A stretch of DNA of 61,059 nt from Phycisphaerales bacterium (GTDB lineage Bacteria > Planctomycetota > Phycisphaerae > Tepidisphaerales > Tepidisphaeraceae): contig JANYKD010000563.1 of the NCBI GenBank assembly GCA_025361735.1, forward strand, positions 1 to 61,059, written 5' to 3'. Under the pieces are notes generated by a model. That model was not told where the DNA came from, ran no database searches, and worked only from the letters and a program-made list of their open reading frames with translations. This document shows, in pieces, positions 19,971 to 50,887 of this stretch (within the stretch, counting starts at the first letter, position 1; each line of letters starts with the position of its first letter). The position numbers and the translations under genes were made by a program.

Positions 19971-20621
19971 ATGAGTCGATCTTACGAAGTCACGCCGTCG
20001 CTGGATTACATTCCTACGTTCAATGAACTGCTTGCAAAGGCGGCGGGTAACTTGAATGATTTTGTCGGCAGGATTGGCATCAAGACGCATTTCAGCTTAA
20101 CGGTCGAGCTACGGCAGAACACCCGTTGGCACGAACGCATCGTATTGCCCATCGACTTGAATGGTGCTTCCTGGTGGACAACAGGGCCGCAGCTTGCATG
20201 GTTCGGCGTGGACGGGTATACGGGCGGAAGCGATGCGTGGACACGCGAATTAGGCGATAGGGCTCGGACGGATTTGCAGTCAAGAACAAAACGGCGTCCC
20301 GAGTGGTCGGAACGTATCGAACGCATGTCACGGGTTGGAAGGGAGTGGTGTTTTTTCCGTTCGATGAATCAGCCTCCCATCATTTGCGTCACTTATGGCA
20401 TTCTTGCCGCCTCGCTGGCTGAACTAACCGACGGCATGGTCAGCTCGTGCGACTCTTGGGGCATTAGTTTTCTACCAGTCACGGGGGGCGAGTTTCTGCG
20501 GCGTTATCTGTCGCCGGACCATGTGGACGACGCCGGCGAGAGAGCCGAGGCGGTTCATCTCCTGAATGAGCTCAAAGAGCAATTGCAGGCACCAAAGTCC
20601 GAGGCATCCACCGGCAACTGA
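19971..20621 (+). CDS. Hypothetical protein, no family recognised
   Basis: 216-aa ORF MSRSYEVTPSLDYIPTFNELL..., no overlapping better ORF. Confidence 0.6.
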   Translation: MSRSYEVTPSLDYIPTFNELLAKAAGNLNDFVGRIGIKTHFSLTVELRQNTRWHERIVLPIDLNGASWWTTGPQLAWFGVDGYTGGSDAWTRELGDRARTDLQSRTKRRPEWSERIERMSRVGREWCFFRSMNQPPIICVTYGILAASLAELTDGMVSSCDSWGISFLPVTGGEFLRRYLSPDHVDDAGERAEAVHLLNELKEQLQAPKSEASTGN

Positions 20622-20628
20622 TCACCGA

Positions 20629-21864
20629 TCACTGTTTCTCCGGCGTCGTCCCCAGATTTATCGATACCCGCTGCGCCTGCTCGCCACGCAACACCGTCAA
20701 CGTCGTCTGCCCTCCGCGGGCCGAGAGAGCGGCCCATGTCGTCAGATCGCCGATGGGCTCGGCGCCCATCTCCAGGATGAAGTCGCCTCGTTGCAGGCCC
20801 ACCCGCTCCGCAAGCGAACCCGGCGTAACCTCATCGACCAGCAGAGCCGGCCGATCGGCGAGTTGTAACAGTTGTCGGCGGACGGGATCGTCCGCGCGGA
20901 TTTCCGTCAGCCTCGCCCCAAGTACTGCTCGTTGCACCACGCCAAGTTTAATAAGCTGGTCGATCACCGGCCTGGAGGCCGATCCCGCCAGAAACTGGCC
21001 ATAGCGAACGATGCCGGAGATTGTCCCGTCGAGCGCCACGACAACGCCGTACTCTCGCTCGCCGCCGGTCCAGAGGGAAAGTTTACCCGCGCCACCCGTC
21101 GGGTTCAGCAGCATCACCAGCGAACCATCCGCCGGCCGCACACCCGTGAGTTTCACCGGCCGACCAATCAGCTTGGTCATCTTGAGAATTGTCACCTGCG
21201 TCTTCTCGTCCGATCCGACGAAACTCGCGGTCGTTTCCTCGTTGCCGATCATCATGCGGACGGGCGCCTGGCCGATGGCTTCCTTTTCGATGTACACCGG
21301 TACGAGCACATGGCCGGAAGCGTCCAGCACCAGCCCGAGATTATTGGGCGAGAACGTCCCGCCGACTGGCAACCGCAGCCGCAGCGGCGCATTCGGGCTG
21401 GGGTTGTTCACTGCGCCGGCGTTGATGACCAGCGCCCCTGGCCGGTCCCCACGGGATTCGAGCACGAACTCACCTGTTGCTGTCTGCCGGGAAACCCACA
21501 TCCCTTCGACATTGCCTGTGGCACTTTGCGTGGTCGTTTGCGTTGTCGCAGAGCTAATGTGGAAGCTCAGTTTGCTGCTTTGCGTGCCCTTCAGCGACGC
21601 TTCGCGGCGGTCTTCGATGGCCTTGCGGACCTGTGGATCGACGACATTTTCCCACTTGCGCAACGGATCGTTCTTTGCGGCCGCCTCGCGTGCCCACAAC
21701 GGCACCGGCAACTGCACCCGGACGATGCCCGCTTGCACTTCGTTATAGAGCGATTGAGTCTGCTGATTGAGCTGTTCCAGCAGAGGATACTCAGCGCGAG
21801 AAACAGCCGGCATGGCGAGCAACGCAATCCCGAGCACAAGACCCTTCAGGGTATTGTTGTTCAT
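20629..21864 (-). CDS. Trypsin-like fold protein with degenerate triad and C-terminal PDZ domain
   Basis: Signal peptide MNNNTLKGLVLGIALLAMPAVSRA; PDZ LLVDEVTPGSLAERVGLQRGDFILEMGAEPI; H/D/S positions not conserved. Confidence 0.7.
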   Translation of the reverse strand: MNNNTLKGLVLGIALLAMPAVSRAEYPLLEQLNQQTQSLYNEVQAGIVRVQLPVPLWAREAAAKNDPLRKWENVVDPQVRKAIEDRREASLKGTQSSKLSFHISSATTQTTTQSATGNVEGMWVSRQTATGEFVLESRGDRPGALVINAGAVNNPSPNAPLRLRLPVGGTFSPNNLGLVLDASGHVLVPVYIEKEAIGQAPVRMMIGNEETTASFVGSDEKTQVTILKMTKLIGRPVKLTGVRPADGSLVMLLNPTGGAGKLSLWTGGEREYGVVVALDGTISGIVRYGQFLAGSASRPVIDQLIKLGVVQRAVLGARLTEIRADDPVRRQLLQLADRPALLVDEVTPGSLAERVGLQRGDFILEMGAEPIGDLTTWAALSARGGQTTLTVLRGEQAQRVSINLGTTPEKQ

Positions 21865-21994
21865 TCGTTGTTTGCTGTATCTCGTCGGCATGGCAAGTTG
21901 TGTGGTACGGTCGAATCTCAAACTCCGCATCTCAGATTTCGAATTCCAAAATCCAAATTTCAAATCTGAAATCTCAATTTTGAAATGTTAAACT

Positions 21995-22525
21995 TCAAAA
22001 CTTCCCCGACCTCACAACCAGATATCCATTCCTGATCTGCTCCTGCTGGTCCTGCCAATGGCGCAGATCATCGGAAAACTCGCGGGCCTGATCCGCGGAG
22101 TTGAAATGCTGCACGCCCAGAACCCGCCCGGAGTCATCGGAGACACTCACTTGATAGGCTGACGCTGGCGAGGTGTGATTGGCCGGCAGGACCGGCCCGC
22201 CCCGGCCGATCCAGCCGATGCCGAAGCCGATCGCCATGCAGGCGGCGATGGCGCCCGTGGCCCGGGTAAATCGGCCATACAGCGTCCATCGCCGTCGCCG
22301 GGCGATGTTCGCCTCGACGCGATTGAGAAAATCGCGGGTCTCGCCGTCGCTTGGCTCCATGGCCGCGAAATGAGCTTCGCGCACTTCCCGCTCCAGCCGC
22401 AGGTCCGCAAGCGTTGCTGACAGATCCGGTTCGGCCGTCAGCCGTCTCTGCAGTTCCACGCTCTCGACGGGACCAAGTTCACCATCAAGCCACGTTTCGA
22501 GAATATCGAGTTCTGTTTCCGTCAC
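21995..22525 (-). CDS. Anti-sigma factor-like protein with single TM
   Basis: MTETELDILETWLDGELGPVESVELQRRL N-terminal domain; TM GAIAACMAIGFGIGWIG; ATGA overlap with ECF gene. Confidence 0.75.
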   Translation of the reverse strand: MTETELDILETWLDGELGPVESVELQRRLTAEPDLSATLADLRLEREVREAHFAAMEPSDGETRDFLNRVEANIARRRRWTLYGRFTRATGAIAACMAIGFGIGWIGRGGPVLPANHTSPASAYQVSVSDDSGRVLGVQHFNSADQAREFSDDLRHWQDQQEQIRNGYLVVRSGKF

Positions 22526-26613: not shown

Positions 26614-27720
26614 ATGTCCGACAATCAGGTCACCCGTCGCGAATTCGTCCAGACCACCGCCGGAGCAGCTGCGGCCTTTGCCGTCGGAGCGAGCGTCCTG
26701 CCCCACGTCATCGCCCGGGCGGACGACGCGGCCGACATCAAGAAGACCCGCAGCTACAACCCCGAGATGGAATACCGCCGGCTCGGCAAGACCAACATGT
26801 GGATCTCCGCCGTCTGCATGGGCGGCCACTGGAAGCGCATCGACACCGCCATCAAGGGTGGTAAAAACGCCGGCTACAGTCAGCCCACCGGCGACGAGAA
26901 AGCTCGTTTCGCCCAGAATCGCCACGACATTGTGAGCCGTTGCCTGGAGCATGGCATCAACCTGGTGGACGCCTGTACCGGCGGCGAGGTCATGGCCTAC
27001 TCCGCGGCGCTCAAGGGCCGCCGCGACAAGATGTTCCTCAACTTCTCCTGGTACGAAGGCGAAATGCGCAACGAAACGTGCCGCAAGAAAGAGAAGCTTC
27101 TGGAAACCCTCGACAACGGCATGAAGCAGGCGGGTCTCGAATATGTCGACCTCTGGCGCGTCACCTGCAACGAGAAGGGCGGCACGCACACGCAGGCCGA
27201 AGTTGACGAACTCATCGCCGCCCTCGACGCCGCCCGCAAGGCCGGCAAGGCCCGCTTCACCGGCATCTCCACGCACGACCGTCCCTGGATCAAGAAGATG
27301 GTCGAGACCTATCCCGATACGCTCCAGGTCATCGTCACTCCGTACACCGCGGCCTCCAAAACGCTGCCGACCGACAGCGTGTTCGAAGCCATCATCAAGC
27401 ACGATATCGGCGTGCTGGGCATCAAGCCGTTCGCCTCCAACTCCCTCTTCAAAGGCGACTCGTCGCTCGATAGCCCCCATCGCGAGGAGGACGACAAGAT
27501 GGCCCGCCTGGCGATTCGGTACATCCTCTGCAACCCCGCGATCACGGCTCCCATTCCGGGCATGGTCCACACGCAGCAGGTTGACAACGTCGCGGCCGCC
27601 ATCAAGGAGCACCGCCAGCTGGACGCCAACGACAAGGCCGAGCTCGAGCAGGCCGGGCGCGAAATGTGGGCCAGACTCCCGGCCGATTATCAGTGGCTGC
27701 GTGACTGGAGAAATGTCTAA
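26614..27720 (+). CDS. Tat-exported aldo/keto reductase
   Basis: MSDNQVTRREFVQTTAGAAAAFAVGASVLP Tat signal; MEYRRLGKTNMWISAVCMGGHW. Confidence 0.85.
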   Translation: MSDNQVTRREFVQTTAGAAAAFAVGASVLPHVIARADDAADIKKTRSYNPEMEYRRLGKTNMWISAVCMGGHWKRIDTAIKGGKNAGYSQPTGDEKARFAQNRHDIVSRCLEHGINLVDACTGGEVMAYSAALKGRRDKMFLNFSWYEGEMRNETCRKKEKLLETLDNGMKQAGLEYVDLWRVTCNEKGGTHTQAEVDELIAALDAARKAGKARFTGISTHDRPWIKKMVETYPDTLQVIVTPYTAASKTLPTDSVFEAIIKHDIGVLGIKPFASNSLFKGDSSLDSPHREEDDKMARLAIRYILCNPAITAPIPGMVHTQQVDNVAAAIKEHRQLDANDKAELEQAGREMWARLPADYQWLRDWRNV

Positions 27721-27728
27721 GGGGAGAT

Positions 27729-27840
27729 GGTGATCGGTGATCGGTGACCAGTGATCGGTTAACTGAACGACTGATCACCGACCACTGATTACCGATCACG
27801 TATCACTGATGACCGCTCACTGCCCACCGATCACCGATTA
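27729..27840. repeat. Heptanucleotide tandem array, 16 units in exact 7-bp phase
   Basis: GGTGATC GGTGATC GGTGACC AGTGATC GGTTAAC TGAACGA CTGATCA CCGACCA CTGATTA CCGATCA CGTATCA CTGATGA CCGCTCA CTGCCCA CCGATCA CCGATTA. Confidence 0.9.
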
Positions 27841-27856
27841 CACAAAGGAGTCTCCC

Positions 27857-28345
27857 TTGCCGCGTACTGTTGTCCTTCTCACCCTCCTCCTGGCCGCCCT
27901 CTCTCTTGGGGCCGACAAGAAACCCACCACGCGGCACGCGATCGAACCGGCCGACAACTCCTATTGCCTCACCTGTCATATCAACTTCCAGGAAGAGAAA
28001 CTCGCGTCACAGCATCAGAAGATCGGCGTGGCCTGCTCAAGCTGCCACGGCCCTTCCGACAAGCACAGCTCCGACGAGGATGGCCTGACCGCCCCCGACA
28101 TCATCTTCTCCAAGGAGCTGATCGCCGTTACCTGCACCGCCTGCCACAAGAACGGCGCGCTCGAAAAGGACGGAGCCCACGCCCCGCTTCTGGCGGGGAA
28201 GGCTGCCGAACCATACAAGTTCTGCACCGATTGCCACGGCAAGCACGCCATGGCCCATCGCACGCGCCGCTGGGACAAGAACACGCGTAAACTCATCTCC
28301 GACGACGGCGTACGTATGATGAACCAGGTTCCGGAGAAGAAATAG
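27857..28345 (+). CDS. Secreted tetraheme cytochrome c
   Basis: TTG start with AAAGGAG upstream; signal peptide; CLTCH, CSSCH, CTACH, CTDCH. Confidence 0.85.
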   Translation: MPRTVVLLTLLLAALSLGADKKPTTRHAIEPADNSYCLTCHINFQEEKLASQHQKIGVACSSCHGPSDKHSSDEDGLTAPDIIFSKELIAVTCTACHKNGALEKDGAHAPLLAGKAAEPYKFCTDCHGKHAMAHRTRRWDKNTRKLISDDGVRMMNQVPEKK

Positions 28346-28352
28346 GACCGTG

Positions 28353-28457
28353 GTTCAAGGGTTCAAAGGTTCAAGAGTTCAAGGGTTCAAAAGTTCAAGA
28401 GTTCGCCCCTTGAACTCTTGAACTCTTGAACTTTTGAACTCTTGAACTCTTGAACCC
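28353..28457. repeat. Octanucleotide tandem array folded as an inverted repeat
   Basis: 6 x GTTCAARR + GTTC, short spacer, then 6 x YYTTGAAC. Confidence 0.9.
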
Positions 28458-28519: not shown

Positions 28520-29359
28520 ATGAAACGTCGTTGTGTCGCTCGGATCGCCACCTCCTTCCACTTCGTGCCTTCGTGCCTCCGTGCCTTCGTGCCTTTCCTT
28601 GTCCTCGCCGCCATCGTCCCCGCCACATTCGCCGCCGAACTCGTCAAGGCCAAGGACGGCTCGGGGGCGTACGGCTACGATGACACCCCCGTGCTCCCCT
28701 GGTGCGGCTACCGCGTCCACGACGCCAACCGGCCATATCCCAAGAAAGTCGATCCGGGTCCGGCCCCGGCGCCTGCTCCGATTCCCTCCGACGCCATCGT
28801 GCTCTTCGACGGCAAGAACCTCGACCAGTGGCTGGCCGGCGAGAACAAGCTCGTCGACGGCTGTATCGAAGCCGGCGGCGCCGTCAGCCCGGCCACCAAG
28901 GAGAGCTTCGGGAGTTTTCAACTCCACATCGAGTGGATGCCGCCCAAGGATTTCAAGGGCCCCTGGTACAACCAGGGCAACAACGGTGTCCTGATCCATG
29001 GCCTGTACGAGATCCAGATCTTCGATTCCTACAACGAGAAGATCTACGCCGATGGCATGTCCGGTGCGATTTACGGCCAGACCCCGCCGCTGGTCAACGC
29101 CATGCGTCCTCCCGGAGAATGGGAGACCTACGACATCGCCTTCACCGCCCCCGTCTTTGACGGCGAAAGACTGGTAAAACCCGCCCGCGTCACGGTCTTT
29201 CACAACGGCATCCTTGTGCAGAACGATGAGGAGATCCACGGCCCCACCGGCCACCGGATTTTGCCCGCGTACAAGAAGCCCATCGTGAAAGGCCCGATCA
29301 TCCTTGCCGGCCACGGCTGCCCCGTCCGTTTCCGTAACATCTGGCTGCGGCCGCTCTGA
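28520..29359 (+). CDS. DUF1080 (3-keto-disaccharide hydrolase-like) protein
   Basis: SDAIVLFDGKNLDQWLAG...NQGNNGVLIHGLYEIQIFDSY...GAIYGQTPPLVNAMRPPGEWETYDI. Confidence 0.9.
   Translation: MKRRCVARIATSFHFVPSCLRAFVPFLVLAAIVPATFAAELVKAKDGSGAYGYDDTPVLPWCGYRVHDANRPYPKKVDPGPAPAPAPIPSDAIVLFDGKNLDQWLAGENKLVDGCIEAGGAVSPATKESFGSFQLHIEWMPPKDFKGPWYNQGNNGVLIHGLYEIQIFDSYNEKIYADGMSGAIYGQTPPLVNAMRPPGEWETYDIAFTAPVFDGERLVKPARVTVFHNGILVQNDEEIHGPTGHRILPAYKKPIVKGPIILAGHGCPVRFRNIWLRPL
28561..28596 (+). repeat. Octanucleotide array (CTTCGTGC)n inside the DUF1080 signal peptide
   Basis: CTTCGTGC CTTCGTGC CTCCGTGC CTTCGTGC CTTT. Confidence 0.8.
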
Positions 29360-29557: not shown

Positions 29558-30730
29558 ATGGCCACGCCCTCCCATCTGCGGCAGCTCAATCAACGACGGG
29601 TGATCTACGCCCTGATGCGCCTCGGGCAGGCTTCGCGCGCGGACCTGGCGAAGGCGACCGGCTTGAGTCAGCCGACCGTCGGGAAGATTGTCGATGAGTT
29701 GGTGGGGACACATGTTGTGGATTCCGCCGATGGGACTGCCGGCGACGATGCCGGTTCGCCCCGATTGGGCCGGCCGGGGCAACTCGTCAGGCTGGATGGA
29801 CGCAGGCAGCGCTTCCTGGCGATACAACTGGGCGTCATGAACACGCGACTGGCAACGCTGCCGATCGCCGCCAGACTGGTCGACGAGTGGGACACCGAGT
29901 TCGCCACACCGTCGTCTCCCCAGGCCTGGGTGAAGGCGCTCAAGAAGGCGATGGACCACCTGCCACTACAGGGGCTGGAGGCGCTGCTGGTCAGTGTGCC
30001 CGGCGTGGTGAACGAAACCAGCGGGGACGTGCTGCTCTGTCCGAATCTGCGCTGGGCCGAGAAGATGAACCTCAACCAGATGCTCACCGGGCTCACGCCG
30101 ACGCCAATCCTGCTGGTCCAGGAGATCCGGGCGCTGGCGTTGGGGCAACTCGCCGTGGACCCGGCCGAGGGGGACTTCCTCCTCGTCGATTTTGCCGACG
30201 GTGTCGGTGGAGCGGCCGTCGTCGGCGGCAAACTGTTCACCGGTTCGGCTCCGCTGTCGGGAGAACTGGGGCACACGCCAGTGCTCGGCAACAACCGGAA
30301 ATGCGGCTGCGGCGCCGTGGGCTGCGTGGAGACACTGGTTTCCCGGCGCGGTTTACTGGCGACATTCGCCGCCGAGACCGGCCGGAATACCACTGATTGG
30401 CCGGCGCTTGTCGAGCATGTGCAGCGGCGCGGGCTCGATCCGTGGCTGATCGCTGCCCTGGAAACCGCGGCCACGACCATCGCCGGTGCGATCAACGTGC
30501 TGGGCCTGCACCGGGTGGTGATCACCGGCTCGCTGACCGAACTGCCGGACTGCGTCATGAATCACCTGGCCGACGCCGTTCGCCGAGGCGCACTGTGGGG
30601 ACGATACGGAGAAGTGCAATGCGTCGCGGCTCCGCGTCGCCGGACGGCCGGCCTCGTGTCGGTCGCGATTGACCGGTTGTTGTGTCCGGATGTCGGGAAC
30701 AGCCAGTGGTCGGTGGTCAGTGGTCAGTAG
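29558..30730 (+). CDS. ROK family transcriptional regulator
   Basis: N-terminal HTH (ASRADLAKATGLSQPTVGKIVDELV); ROK motif GHTPVLGNNRKCGCGAVGCVETLVS. Confidence 0.9.
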   Translation: MATPSHLRQLNQRRVIYALMRLGQASRADLAKATGLSQPTVGKIVDELVGTHVVDSADGTAGDDAGSPRLGRPGQLVRLDGRRQRFLAIQLGVMNTRLATLPIAARLVDEWDTEFATPSSPQAWVKALKKAMDHLPLQGLEALLVSVPGVVNETSGDVLLCPNLRWAEKMNLNQMLTGLTPTPILLVQEIRALALGQLAVDPAEGDFLLVDFADGVGGAAVVGGKLFTGSAPLSGELGHTPVLGNNRKCGCGAVGCVETLVSRRGLLATFAAETGRNTTDWPALVEHVQRRGLDPWLIAALETAATTIAGAINVLGLHRVVITGSLTELPDCVMNHLADAVRRGALWGRYGEVQCVAAPRRRTAGLVSVAIDRLLCPDVGNSQWSVVSGQ

Positions 30731-32010: not shown

Positions 32011-32016
32011 GATGCA

Positions 32017-32051
32017 GTTGCCAGTTGGTCGTTGTTAGTTGCCAGTGAAGA
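32017..32051. repeat. Heptanucleotide array, GTTGCCA-type
   Basis: GTTGCCA GTTGGTC GTTGTTA GTTGCCA GTGAAGA. Confidence 0.65.
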
Positions 32052-33167: not shown

Positions 33168-36100
33168 ATGTTTTCACGATTGATGGCGAAGTGGCGTCGG
33201 GGTCGATCTGCGAAGGTGGAGCGTCGGTTGCGGAATGCTGTGTGTCAGCCGCTGGAAGGGCGGGTGCTGCTGGCGCACACGATCTACGTGGATGTGAGTT
33301 CGCCGGATTCGGGGCGAGATGGAATGTCGTGGGGGAGTGCGTTTGCGGATTTGCAGTTGGCGCTGGGCGCGGCAGTGTCGGGGGACACGATCCGGGTGGC
33401 GGCTGGGACCTATAAGCCGACGGCAGGGACGAGTCGGACTATCTGCTTCCAGTTGAAGACGGGCGTGGGAATTTACGGCGGATATGCCGGGTACGGGGCG
33501 GCAGATCCGGATGCGCGGGATGTGGCGACGAATGCGTCGATTCTGTCGGGGGACATCGGTGTGGCGGGGGACAAGAGTGACAACAGCTATCATGTGGTCG
33601 TTGGAAGTGCGACGGACGGGACAGCGGTTCTCGACGGATGTACGATTACTGCGGGCTATGCCAACGATGGCACGGGCAAGGATGGGGACTATTCAGGTGG
33701 CGGGATGTACGTTTCCTCCGGCAGCCCAACACTGACCAACTGCAGTTTCCGCACGAACACAGCCGACCAGGGTGGTGGGATGTACAGTTCGTCCGGAAGT
33801 CCAACGTTGACTGGTTGCACGTTCATCGGCAATTCAGCGAGGAGCGGCGGGGGGATGCAAGTTTATTCTGGAAGCCCAACGCTGACCGGCTGCACGTTCA
33901 TCGGGAATGCCGCGGTCGATGTCATGAGTGGAGGTGGTGGAATCTCCATTGGCGGCCCGGCAACGCTAACCAATTGCTCGTTCAGCGGGAACACGGCTGA
34001 TTATTGGGGTGGTGGAATAAGTCTTTACGGCGACGCAATGCTCGTAAACTGCGCGATTAGTGGGAACACGGCTGGCTACGGTGGTGGCGTGTGTGGTCTC
34101 CACGGAATAATAAGCAATTGTATTGTCTGGGGTAACAGCGATGAAGATGGGGCAATGGAGGCGCTGTGGCGGCAGGGCGGCGGGCAGGGGACGGACAAGC
34201 GCACTGTGGCCTGGAGCGACATCCAGGGCGGTCGGGCGGGCACTGGCAATATCAATGCCGATCCGAAGTTTGTCCGCAACCCGAGTCCTGGTGCTGATGA
34301 TGTCTGGGGCACAAGCGACGATGACTACGGCGATCTTCGGCTGCGAGATGATTCTCCTTGTATTGACGCAGGGAACAATGCGGCCGTTCCCGGCGGCGTG
34401 ACTACCGACCTGGCGGGTGAGAATCGGTTCTACGATACGCCTGTGTCCGATACCGGGTCCGGAACGGCTCCGATTGTGGACATGGGCGCCTACGAGGCCC
34501 ATTTCGTAGTCGGCGCCAGTGCGGGTGGGCCGTACACGGTTATTCAGGGACAGAGCATCACCCTCAGCAGCTTCGGCGCCAGCGCCGCGGCAGGGGCGTT
34601 GCAGTACGACTGGGAGTGGAGCGGGGATGGGAAGTTCGATGATGCGACGGGAGCAAATCCGGTGTTTTCGACGGCCGGGCTGCCGCTGGCTAACGTGACG
34701 GTCTGGTTGCGGGTGACAGACGGGGCAATGAATAGTGCCGTGGCAACAACCACGGTCGCGGTCGTACCGACGGTCGTGTATGTGGATGGCAACGCAACCG
34801 GGGCGAATACCGGTGTGACCTGGGCCGATGCGTACGCGCGCCTGAGCACCGCTATGAAACAGGCGGTTGTTGGCCAGCAAATCCATGTTGCCGACGGAAC
34901 CTATACGCCCACCGGAGGCAAGGATCGCTTCGCCTCATTCCACCTCAAGAGCGGGATCGGATTGTATGGCGGCTATGCCGGATATGGCGCGGCCGATCCG
35001 AATGTCCGGGACGTGATGCTGTACCCGACGATCCTTTCGGGAAGAATTGGGACGGCCGGCTTAAGTTATCACGTGGTAGCCGGCAGTGGTGTCGATGCGA
35101 CCGCGGTTCTGGATGGATTTACGGTTATGCGGGGAGGTGCCTACGATTGGACGATTGTTGTATACACGGGAGGTTATGGCGGCGGGATGTACAACGATCA
35201 TTCCTCGCCGACGTTGATCGATTGCACGTTCAGCGGCAACTCCGCCGGCTACGGCGGCGGGATGTACAACGATCATTCGTCTCCGATGCTTGTCAACTGC
35301 ACGTTCAGCGGAAACTCGACAATCGGATTCAGCCAAGGCGATATCGTCAGAAGAGGCGGCGGCGGTGGCGGCATGTTCAACGTTCATTCCTCGCCGACGC
35401 TCGTCAACTGCACGTTCAGCGGAAACTCGTCACCCGGATTCGACGAGCGCAAGATCCTCATGGATGGTGCCGGCGGCGGAATGGACAACACCGATGATTC
35501 CTCACCGACGGTGACCAACTGCAGGTTCTACGGTAATTCGGCCGCCTATGGTGGTGGGATCTACAACGTCCAGTCTTCGCCGCGGTTGACAAATTGCCTC
35601 GTCTGGGGGAACACTGCCAGCGAAAACGGCGGTGGCATCGGCATGAATGATGCTATGTACTTCAGCAACGGGTTCCTCGCAGGCCTAGGCCCATCCACGC
35701 CTACACTGATCAACTGCACCGTCAGCCGCAACAGCGCCGGCTGGGGGGGTGGCGGAATATGGGGTTACCCACAGTCCCGGCCGACGCTGACCAATTGTAT
35801 CGTGTGGGGGAACACCGCGACGGCCAACGGTGGGCCGCAGATCGGCCCCGTCATCGCGTTCAGCGAGGCGATCGTGACCTACAGCGACATTGAGGGGGGC
35901 TGGACGGGTGCAGGAAATATCAATACCGATCCGAAATTTGTACGAGGCGCCAGTTCCGGGGCAGATGGCACATGGGGCACTGCCGACGACGATTATGGTG
36001 ACTTGAGTTTGCAGGTGGCGTCACTATGTATCGGTAGTGGCAAAAATGAGGCTGTACCGGCCGACATTACCACAGACATTGCCGGCAATGCTCGAATTCA

Positions 36101-38048: not shown

Positions 38049-39011
38049 CTAGTCTATGAAGCGACGGGACAGTTCGGCGTAAGCGTCGGTCCGGCGGTCG
38101 CGAAGGAACGGCCAATGTGTCCGGCTGTACTCGACGCGGTCGAGATCGCAGGGGACGATGACAATTTCCTCGCGGCCGGGCGACGCCCGGTGCATCACCT
38201 GGCCATCGGGCGAGGCGACAAAGGATTGGCCCCAGAACTCGATGCCGTTCTGGGTGCTGGGTCCTGGGTGCAGAGTGGACAATACCGAGTTCTGAGTGCT
38301 GAGTGCTGAGGCGGAAATGCGTTCGTGGCCAACACGGTTGGTGGCGCAGACGTAGCAGCCATTGGCGATGGCGTGGGAGCGCTGGATCAGTTCCCAGGCT
38401 TCGTGCTGGGCCTTGCCGAGTTGCTGTTTCTCGGCCGGGTGCCAGCCGATGGCCGTGGGGTAGAAGAGGATGTCGGCGCCCTGGAGGGCGGTCAGGCGGG
38501 CGGCCTCGGGAAACCACTGGTCCCAGCAGATGAGCACGCCAATAGTGGCATACCTGGTCTTCCAGGACTTAAAGCCCAAGTCACCGGGCGCGAAATAGAA
38601 CTTCTCGTAATAGAGCGGATCGTCGGGAACGTGCATCTTGCGATAGATGCCCAGGAGCGAGCCATCGGCGTCGATGATGACGGCCGTGTTGTGATAGAGC
38701 CCATTGGCTCGTTTCTCAAAGATCGAACCGACGATGACCACGCTGCGCTTGCGTGCCAGTTTGCGGAGCGCGTCGGTGGTTGGGCCGGGGATCGACTCGG
38801 CCAGAGCGAAGTGGGCGTAATCTTCGGATTGGCAGAAGTAGGGGGTTCGGAACAGTTCCTGGGTGCAGAGGATGCGGGCGCCGCGTGTGGCGGCCTGTTC
38901 GAGGAGGTGCAACTGACGGTCGAGGTTGGTTGCGGGATCGGCCGAGCAGGCCATCTGGGTGAGCCCGATGGTTACGCTGTTGTCAGAAGTTCTCGGTTTA
39001 CGGCTTGTCAT
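38049..39011 (-). CDS. aguB: N-carbamoylputrescine amidase (nitrilase superfamily)
   Basis: TIGLTQMACSADPATNLD, CTQELFRTPYFCQSED, YRKMHVPDDPLYYEKFYFAPGD, GVLICWDQWFPEAAR. Confidence 0.92.
   Translation of the reverse strand: MTSRKPRTSDNSVTIGLTQMACSADPATNLDRQLHLLEQAATRGARILCTQELFRTPYFCQSEDYAHFALAESIPGPTTDALRKLARKRSVVIVGSIFEKRANGLYHNTAVIIDADGSLLGIYRKMHVPDDPLYYEKFYFAPGDLGFKSWKTRYATIGVLICWDQWFPEAARLTALQGADILFYPTAIGWHPAEKQQLGKAQHEAWELIQRSHAIANGCYVCATNRVGHERISASALSTQNSVLSTLHPGPSTQNGIEFWGQSFVASPDGQVMHRASPGREEIVIVPCDLDRVEYSRTHWPFLRDRRTDAYAELSRRFID
38247..38309. repeat. Heptanucleotide array (9 x 7 = 63 bp) in frame inside aguB
   Basis: GTTCTGG GTGCTGG GTCCTGG GTGCAGA GTGGACA ATACCGA GTTCTGA GTGCTGA GTGCTGA; minus-strand translation SALSTQNSVLSTLHPGPSTQN. 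Confidence 0.9.
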
Positions 39012-50810: not shown

Positions 50811-50887
50811 GGAAATGGGATTTGAAATCTCAGATTTGGAATTTGATATTTCAAATTTGACATTTGAGATTTGAGATTTGAAATCTT
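50811..50887. repeat. Heptanucleotide array GATTTGA-type, 10-11 units
   Basis: GGAAATG GGATTTG AAATCTC AGATTTG GAATTTG ATATTTC AAATTTG ACATTTG AGATTTG AGATTTG AAATCTT. Confidence 0.9.

Follow-up and report, generated by a model that had tools for sequence, protein, structure and literature searches.

Between a gene for an aldo/keto reductase and one for a multihaem cytochrome, the window (the whole stretch of 61,059 nucleotides analysed here) holds a tandem array of heptanucleotides. Across 27729-27841, within gap 27720-27857, five GGTGATC-type units lead into a joint of about 10 nt, which is followed by ten GATCACC-type units. The features of the locus are as follows.

26614-27720, plus strand: aldo/keto reductase, the upstream gene (PF00248, E=5e-20), with its stop TAA at 27718-27720.
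27729-27759, plus strand: 5' arm of RGT-NNNC units, GGTGATC GGTGATC GGTGACC AGTGATC GGT (direct reading, TRF and period scan).
27760-27769, no strand: joint TAACTGAACG between the two arms, about 10 nt (direct reading).
27770-27841, minus strand: 3' arm of ten ACYGNNN-type units, i.e. CRGT units read on the minus strand, with the letters ACTGATC ACCGACC ACTGATT ACCGATC ACGTATC ACTGATG ACCGCTC ACTGCCC ACCGATC ACCGATT AC (direct reading, TRF and period scan).
27857-28345, plus strand: multihaem cytochrome (CXXCH), the downstream gene (PF09699, 4e-8), with a TTG start after AAAGGAG.

TRF and a period scan of the window both place period 7 at 27729-27759 and 27770-27841. The array is followed on its 3' side by ACACAAAGGAG and then by the TTG start at about 27857, whose context AAAGGAG...TTG is conserved in the nearest homologue (G003). 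A longer call for the cytochrome, beginning with an ATG at 27809 within the array, is unlikely. The sequence-only reading had described sixteen consecutive heptamers in perfect phase. The 16 x 7 bases, running to 27840/27841, are real, but only about 14 of the 16 heptamers are recognisable because TAACTGAACG is a joint and not repeat units. Nor is perfect phase across the joint a rule, being found in seven of the 24 two-arm arrays of this genome, where about 3.4 were expected, and joint lengths among the two-arm arrays run from -6 to 39 nt. The focal sequence gave 63 BLAST matches in the genome, and the gap probably holds one copy of a class of junction elements. Arrays of this kind number in the hundreds in the genome.

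Further arrays lie in the same window, two of them absent from the list made from the sequence alone.

28352-28455, no strand: second two-arm array, period 8 (RGTTCAAR ... YTTGAACY), directly 3' of the cytochrome stop; missing from the earlier list.
28561-28595: octamer array of CTTCGTGC, close to where a 3-keto-disaccharide hydrolase gene begins and overlapping its called coding start; likewise missed.
30704-30728, plus strand: short CAGTGGT array (CRGT grammar), then ATTTS-type repeats to 30759 (scan).
20618-20632, minus strand: two-unit remnant TGATCACCGATCACT at an ORF end (by eye).
32012-32047, plus strand: AGTTGCC-type units (CAGT+TGN), under the scan threshold (by eye).
21929-21999, no strand: ATTTSRR-type period-7 array, outside the CRGT grammar (TRF and period scan).
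50811-50884, no strand: ATTTSRR-type period-7 array (TRF and period scan).
38247-38310, plus strand: CTGGGTG/CTGAGTG period-7 array overlapping a called ORF (TRF and period scan).

The earlier list had put arrays at six other positions. Those at 21914, 30704, 38247 and 50811 pass the period scan, but those at 20618 and 32017 have just two to four units and stay under its threshold. Elsewhere in the window, tandem repeats of 75 and 111 bp at 35178-35528 lie within the gene of a large Calx-beta/PMP-repeat protein.

The genome is a 7.53 Mb draft (84% complete, 6% contamination), and the genome figures given here are drawn from 1.06 Mb of it. In 508 kb of unselected contigs, 26 period-7 segments were found against one in a local dinucleotide shuffle, and an unselected sample of 593 kb gave 28 arrays against one. 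Similarly, RGT arms in 7-nt register numbered 159, compared with 27 after shuffling. The 26 segments divide into 22 intergenic and four coding, with some error in these classes because the gene calls came from a simple codon-usage script; periods 3, 6, 9 and 12 occurred in coding DNA only. Period 7 is the dominant intergenic period of the genome and period 8 the second. Tandem heptamers in intergenic DNA, a mark of TAACTGA-type repeats, are a property of this genome. These counts bear out the proposal that period 7 is genome-wide and intergenic. Two findings named beforehand as telling against it, arrays no commoner than in shuffled DNA and an RNA gene at the site, did not turn up, as Rfam gave only sub-threshold microRNA look-alikes and no family above the gathering score for the array. 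The heptad array is probably a real element.

The units follow the formula CRGT+NNN, with a nearly fixed core and three variable letters. Among 304 units of the GTNATC family, G1 and T2 are 98-99% fixed and A4, T5 and C6 90-95%, while G/A/C/T counts are 180/70/40/14 at N3 and 203/80/19/2 at N7. The unit had been thought to wander freely at steady spacing; the spacing is indeed conserved and much of the unit drifts, but CRGT is nearly fixed and it is NNN that varies. The same grammar accommodates the AGTTGCC and GTRGTC arrays and the majority of words from phages and from 115 contigs of other organisms, with arrays of the ATTTSRR, CATTCGG and CACGAAG types falling outside it. The ends of the arms were located in three independent sets (this genome, other phyla and phages) by letting each arm grow with no more than one mismatch allowed per unit. 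On the outer side, a purine precedes the first GT (89% here), and the three positions further out show background composition. On the inner side, the G/T of the next unit are kept at 0.81/0.53 here, 0.81/0.61 in other phyla and 0.95/0.84 in phages, and the remainder falls to background; with a laxer extension (two mismatches) this signal weakens to 0.53/0.27 here. In all three sets, then, an arm begins with RGT and finishes with CRGT, its inner end being less certain than its outer.

These properties bear on the simplest account, namely that polymerase slippage multiplied heptamers which then mutated, without any function. An excess of heptamers in bacteria is known (PMC4692102), adjacent units are somewhat alike in other phyla and phages (N3 lag-1 likeness 0.728 vs 0.669 permuted), runs of identical units occur elsewhere (GTGATCG x17 in L122), and indels of 7 nt are seen. 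However, neighbour likeness, weak in those other sets, is absent here, where N3 and N7 of adjacent units are no more alike than permuted (304 units). Slippage of a single word was rejected on the fixed core together with this lack of memory. Further, the shared start phase of the arms argues against independent slippage seeds, which would start at any phase, and the free NNN beside a fixed core, the polarity of the arms and the slower change of the core in phages (both described below) also speak against the account. We regard functionless slippage as rather improbable.

The polarity is nearly absolute. Where opposed arms lie within 120 bp, the GT arm comes first in 33 of 34 cases here, in 42 of 43 in other organisms and in all 109 in phage contigs, i.e. 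184:2 pooled over the genome, the 115 contigs of many phyla and the phage contigs. The order does not hang on the choice of strand, as GT-then-AC read on the opposite strand is GT-then-AC once more. Many of the statistics in this work were picked post hoc; the polarity and end-phase results were rechecked in sets outside those that formed them (other phyla and phages). Two-arm arrays sit in 22 co-directional, one convergent and four divergent gaps here, and in 23, two and none, respectively, in other organisms, a co-directional excess against gap counts with one-sided p of 0.03 and 0.0015. The upstream stop lies a median of 6.5 nt (here) and 5 nt (other organisms) away and the following start codon a median of 21.5 and 16 nt, respectively; some arrays touch the ATG.

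Part of the polarity can be explained by translation initiation, since GT arms carry GTG codons as well as GGUGAUC, a sequence complementary to the beginning of the 16S 3' tail. Among paired arms lying no more than 40 nt from a start, AC type prevails by 18:1 here and 73:1 in phages, as is usual for TAACTGA-type repeats. An AC-type arm before the next start fits a translation-initiation constraint, the 16S-tail part of which we infer. Of the partnerless arms at that distance from a start, 36 of 38 in phages and 10 of 16 here are AC-type; as this last ratio (10:6) is not clearly biased, translation alone does not give the polarity in this genome. Two candidate purposes were rejected. Complementarity of GGTGATC to the 16S 3' tail as a cause is countered by the free variation of N3, which makes it a coincidence or a side constraint, and a supply of stop codons in all frames is countered by the common words CAGTGGC and CAGTTAT, which by reading have none in the entering sense.

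That the focal array can also fold had been noted from its sequence. As RNA it has a predicted MFE of -65.9 kcal/mol vs -38.3 kcal/mol when shuffled, and both two-arm arrays of the window fold strongly as single strands (z -7.0 and -10.5). The arms, however, do not covary: in three sets (genome, other organisms and phages) their letters at R and NNN agree no more often than permuted ones, and phage arms share spacer words no more within elements than between them (0.616 vs 0.625). A tract of at least six T in ten occurs in just seven of 66 flanks here and is absent at the focal array. A hairpin selected for its pairing and an intrinsic terminator are therefore both opposed by the data; selection for a perfect hairpin is ruled out by the lack of covariation between arms, and the terminator by the lack of a T-run. 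A looser version, in which selection on folding keeps an intercistronic RNA hairpin as a REP-like stabiliser, RNase III site or terminator, draws on the opposed arms, the co-directional gaps, the predicted folds and the presence of other hairpin elements in the same gaps of relatives. It has to contend with the absence of covariation, with 42 of 109 phage elements lacking any common spacer word and with most flanks lacking a T-run, and it gives no reason for GT-first polarity. Its probability is low, on a par with that of functionless slippage.

Comparison with relatives shows that arrays come and go at junctions. An array fills the entire 114 bp between nuoM and nuoN (both Proton_antipo_M) in this genome; the relatives have no array there, several having an ATGA overlap and one a different 111-bp hairpin. 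The latter, in G015 (L252), is an insert with GGGCGTCCCGCCCATG hairpin arms. Likewise, no such array occupies the equivalent gaps of the closest relative that carries the focal genes (75% identity). Such presence and absence could reflect a small mobile element inserted at gene ends by a RAYT/Y1-type transposase, and nine matches to Y1_Tnp were found among the genome's profile matches. However, copies in this genome resemble one another no more than if each had been drawn independently from the unit profile, the longest unit string they share being four, as in permutations, and arm sizes vary freely across the two-arm arrays. Copying of whole arrays between loci was rejected on the same grounds, there being no excess similarity in this genome. 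Mobility would fit the octamer CACGAAG elements better than the heptad arrays, and we hold it to be very unlikely for the latter. In those octamer elements, arms of TTAAACACGAAGnCACGAAGnCACGAAGCGG and its inverse bound stretches of about 155 bp with partly similar interiors (L168:1686-1839, L011:13725-13875, L015:3827-3979, L028:6015-6166, L184:6102-6263 and six more); the TTAAACACGAAGnCACGAAGnCACGAAGCGG-bounded element looks like a small mobile element.

Arrays could also be written in place: where a junction is broken or nicked, a templated, telomerase-like activity would add repeats to the two 3' ends, which are then joined. Such addition predicts the polarity, the RGT start and stop, independently built arms, a variable joint and the lack of unit memory. 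Yet the genome has just two reverse transcriptase matches, the enzyme and its template RNA are hypothetical, the block structure of units elsewhere resembles slippage, and the slower change of the core seen in inherited arrays is not predicted. This makes it an unlikely explanation. A slimmer chance still is given to its strong form, a dedicated directional 3'-end adder of CRGT+NNN, working from an RGT start to a CRGT end in bacteria and phages alike and producing an analogue of interstitial telomeric repeats.

The class reaches far beyond this genome. At least 115 stretches matched the exact pattern GTGATCRGTGATCRGTGAYC. Their record titles name Planctomycetota, Verrucomicrobia, Lentisphaerae, Chloroflexi, Bacteroidetes, Cyanobacteria, Acidobacteria, Deltaproteobacteria, Sumerlaeota, Omnitrophota, Elusimicrobia, Armatimonadota, Gemmatimonadota, Streptomyces, Clostridia and others, in a set that over-represents GTGATC because it was seeded by one genome scan with one word. 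Within the phylum the distribution is patchy, five CRGT cores in 7-nt register occurring in 36 of 149 genomes and in 8-nt register in 15. A control with the pattern reversed likewise finds matches in many of the phylum's genomes, so growth at period 7 is partly generic. No similar DNA was found in the plasmids or E. coli searched, and a literature search for the array strings found none.

Viral stretches accounted for 80 matches. In five IMG/VR contigs (L310, L333, L340, L349 and L366) nearly every gap holds an array, and two of these (L340 and L366) encode terminase, portal, tape measure, tail and baseplate genes, which identifies them as tailed phages or prophages. The loops of phage arrays are often AAAGGCAAAA or its complement, and AAAGGCAAAA / TTTTGCCTTT recur. 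At orthologous gaps, related phages can differ in their word, carry another hairpin or lack an array. In the 13 orthologous gaps that could be aligned, changes number 10/929 in the core, 28/590 in NNN and 158/3811 in non-array flanks; the real counts are about half, because each site was counted from both sides, and Fisher p on halved counts is 0.003 and 0.0006. The core thus changes at about a quarter of the rate seen in NNN or flanking DNA. The 13 gaps are not independent, so this is suggestive and not proof of constraint; on these few sequence comparisons, the core is probably under constraint in phages. The commonest indel inside arrays is a step of 7 nt (4/10). Two side observations concern phage-like sequence: in L306 (IMGVR_UViG_3300049183_000013) gaps repeatedly hold CACCGATCACTGATCACCGATCACCCGGCACTT, several with CTGAAAACTGAACACTGAAAACTAGCAAACT about 25 nt later, and in the bacterial genome a heptad array adjoins a phage portal-like gene (L014:5889-5974).

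The earlier statement that no equivalent has been described is too strong, as TAACTGA (PMC4679880) and GGGNATC (PMC4692102) heptamers are known in several groups. The TAACTGA heptamers of Beggiatoaceae, Cyanobacteria and Bacteroidetes lie as forward units just 5' of start codons (MacGregor 2015, PMC4679880). They resemble the present arrays in being intergenic, in their period of 7, in the mixed heptamers of Microcystis and in an AC-type orientation that is often found before starts, and the complement of TAACTGA, CAGT+TAT, falls within the CRGT+NNN grammar. However, they are reported as one exact word, mostly in direct order and of very limited distribution, whereas the arrays studied here are degenerate, with opposed arms, strict polarity and a spread over many phyla and phages; the exact TAACTGA word is absent from the focal array, which has GGTGATC/GATCACC units and variants. 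The G-quadruplex GGGNATC heptamers of Xanthomonas and Nostoc are, like ours, genome-wide, non-coding, near stops and starts, and placed between aligned ORFs and rarely between divergent ones, but they have a G-tract word, prefer four units and lack a CRGT core (PMC4692102). REP/BIME palindromes share the many intergenic copies, the inverted arrangement and the operon junctions, but the arrays here are tandem 7-bp units whose arms do not covary. To our knowledge, no core-and-spacer grammar or polarity has been recognised in cyanobacterial heptanucleotide STRR sequences. By their description, those of Calothrix are likewise tandem heptanucleotides with several words per genome (cited in PMC4692102). 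The array class is a broader, more degenerate relative of the known heptamer repeats.

The nearest working model comes from plasmid pSM19035, where Omega acts on parS heptads, contiguous 7-bp units of WATCACW in direct or inverted order, and needs several units for activity (PMC9499535). ATCAC is common to WATCACW and the focal GATCACC units, a likeness of sequence alone. Placement differs, as the parS sites lie at the promoters of one plasmid family in mixed orientations, and the arrays here at gene junctions in one polarity. No Omega repressor (PF07764) was matched in the genome, and the control was likewise without a match anywhere.

Our best reading, to which we give a probability of about 0.36, is a sequence-specific CRGT array at gene junctions, with its core read by a putative factor and units added by slippage. 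The reader of the CRGT cores would be a factor that binds nucleic acid sequence-specifically, requires several cores in register and may act on DNA or on intercistronic RNA. Selection would retain the core and the register while NNN drifts, units would be gained and lost through 7-nt slippage or recombination, and whole arrays would come and go at junctions. The large number of words within one genome and the octamer and ATTTS arrays without CRGT are hard to reconcile with a single protein, and an array in all gaps of a phage late operon would be unusual for a DNA-binding operator. The strongest rivals to the CRGT-reading factor are slippage on which some unrecognised selection acts, and an intercistronic hairpin under loose selection.

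Bacteria have been recognised since 2007 to carry an excess of heptamers, for which there is no accepted cause (PMC4692102). The grammar of core and spacer, the fixed ends, the nearly absolute polarity and the phages in which almost every gap has an array turn this into a testable question, namely what reads or writes CRGT every seven bases. If such a factor exists, it would act across many phyla and at junctions inside operons.
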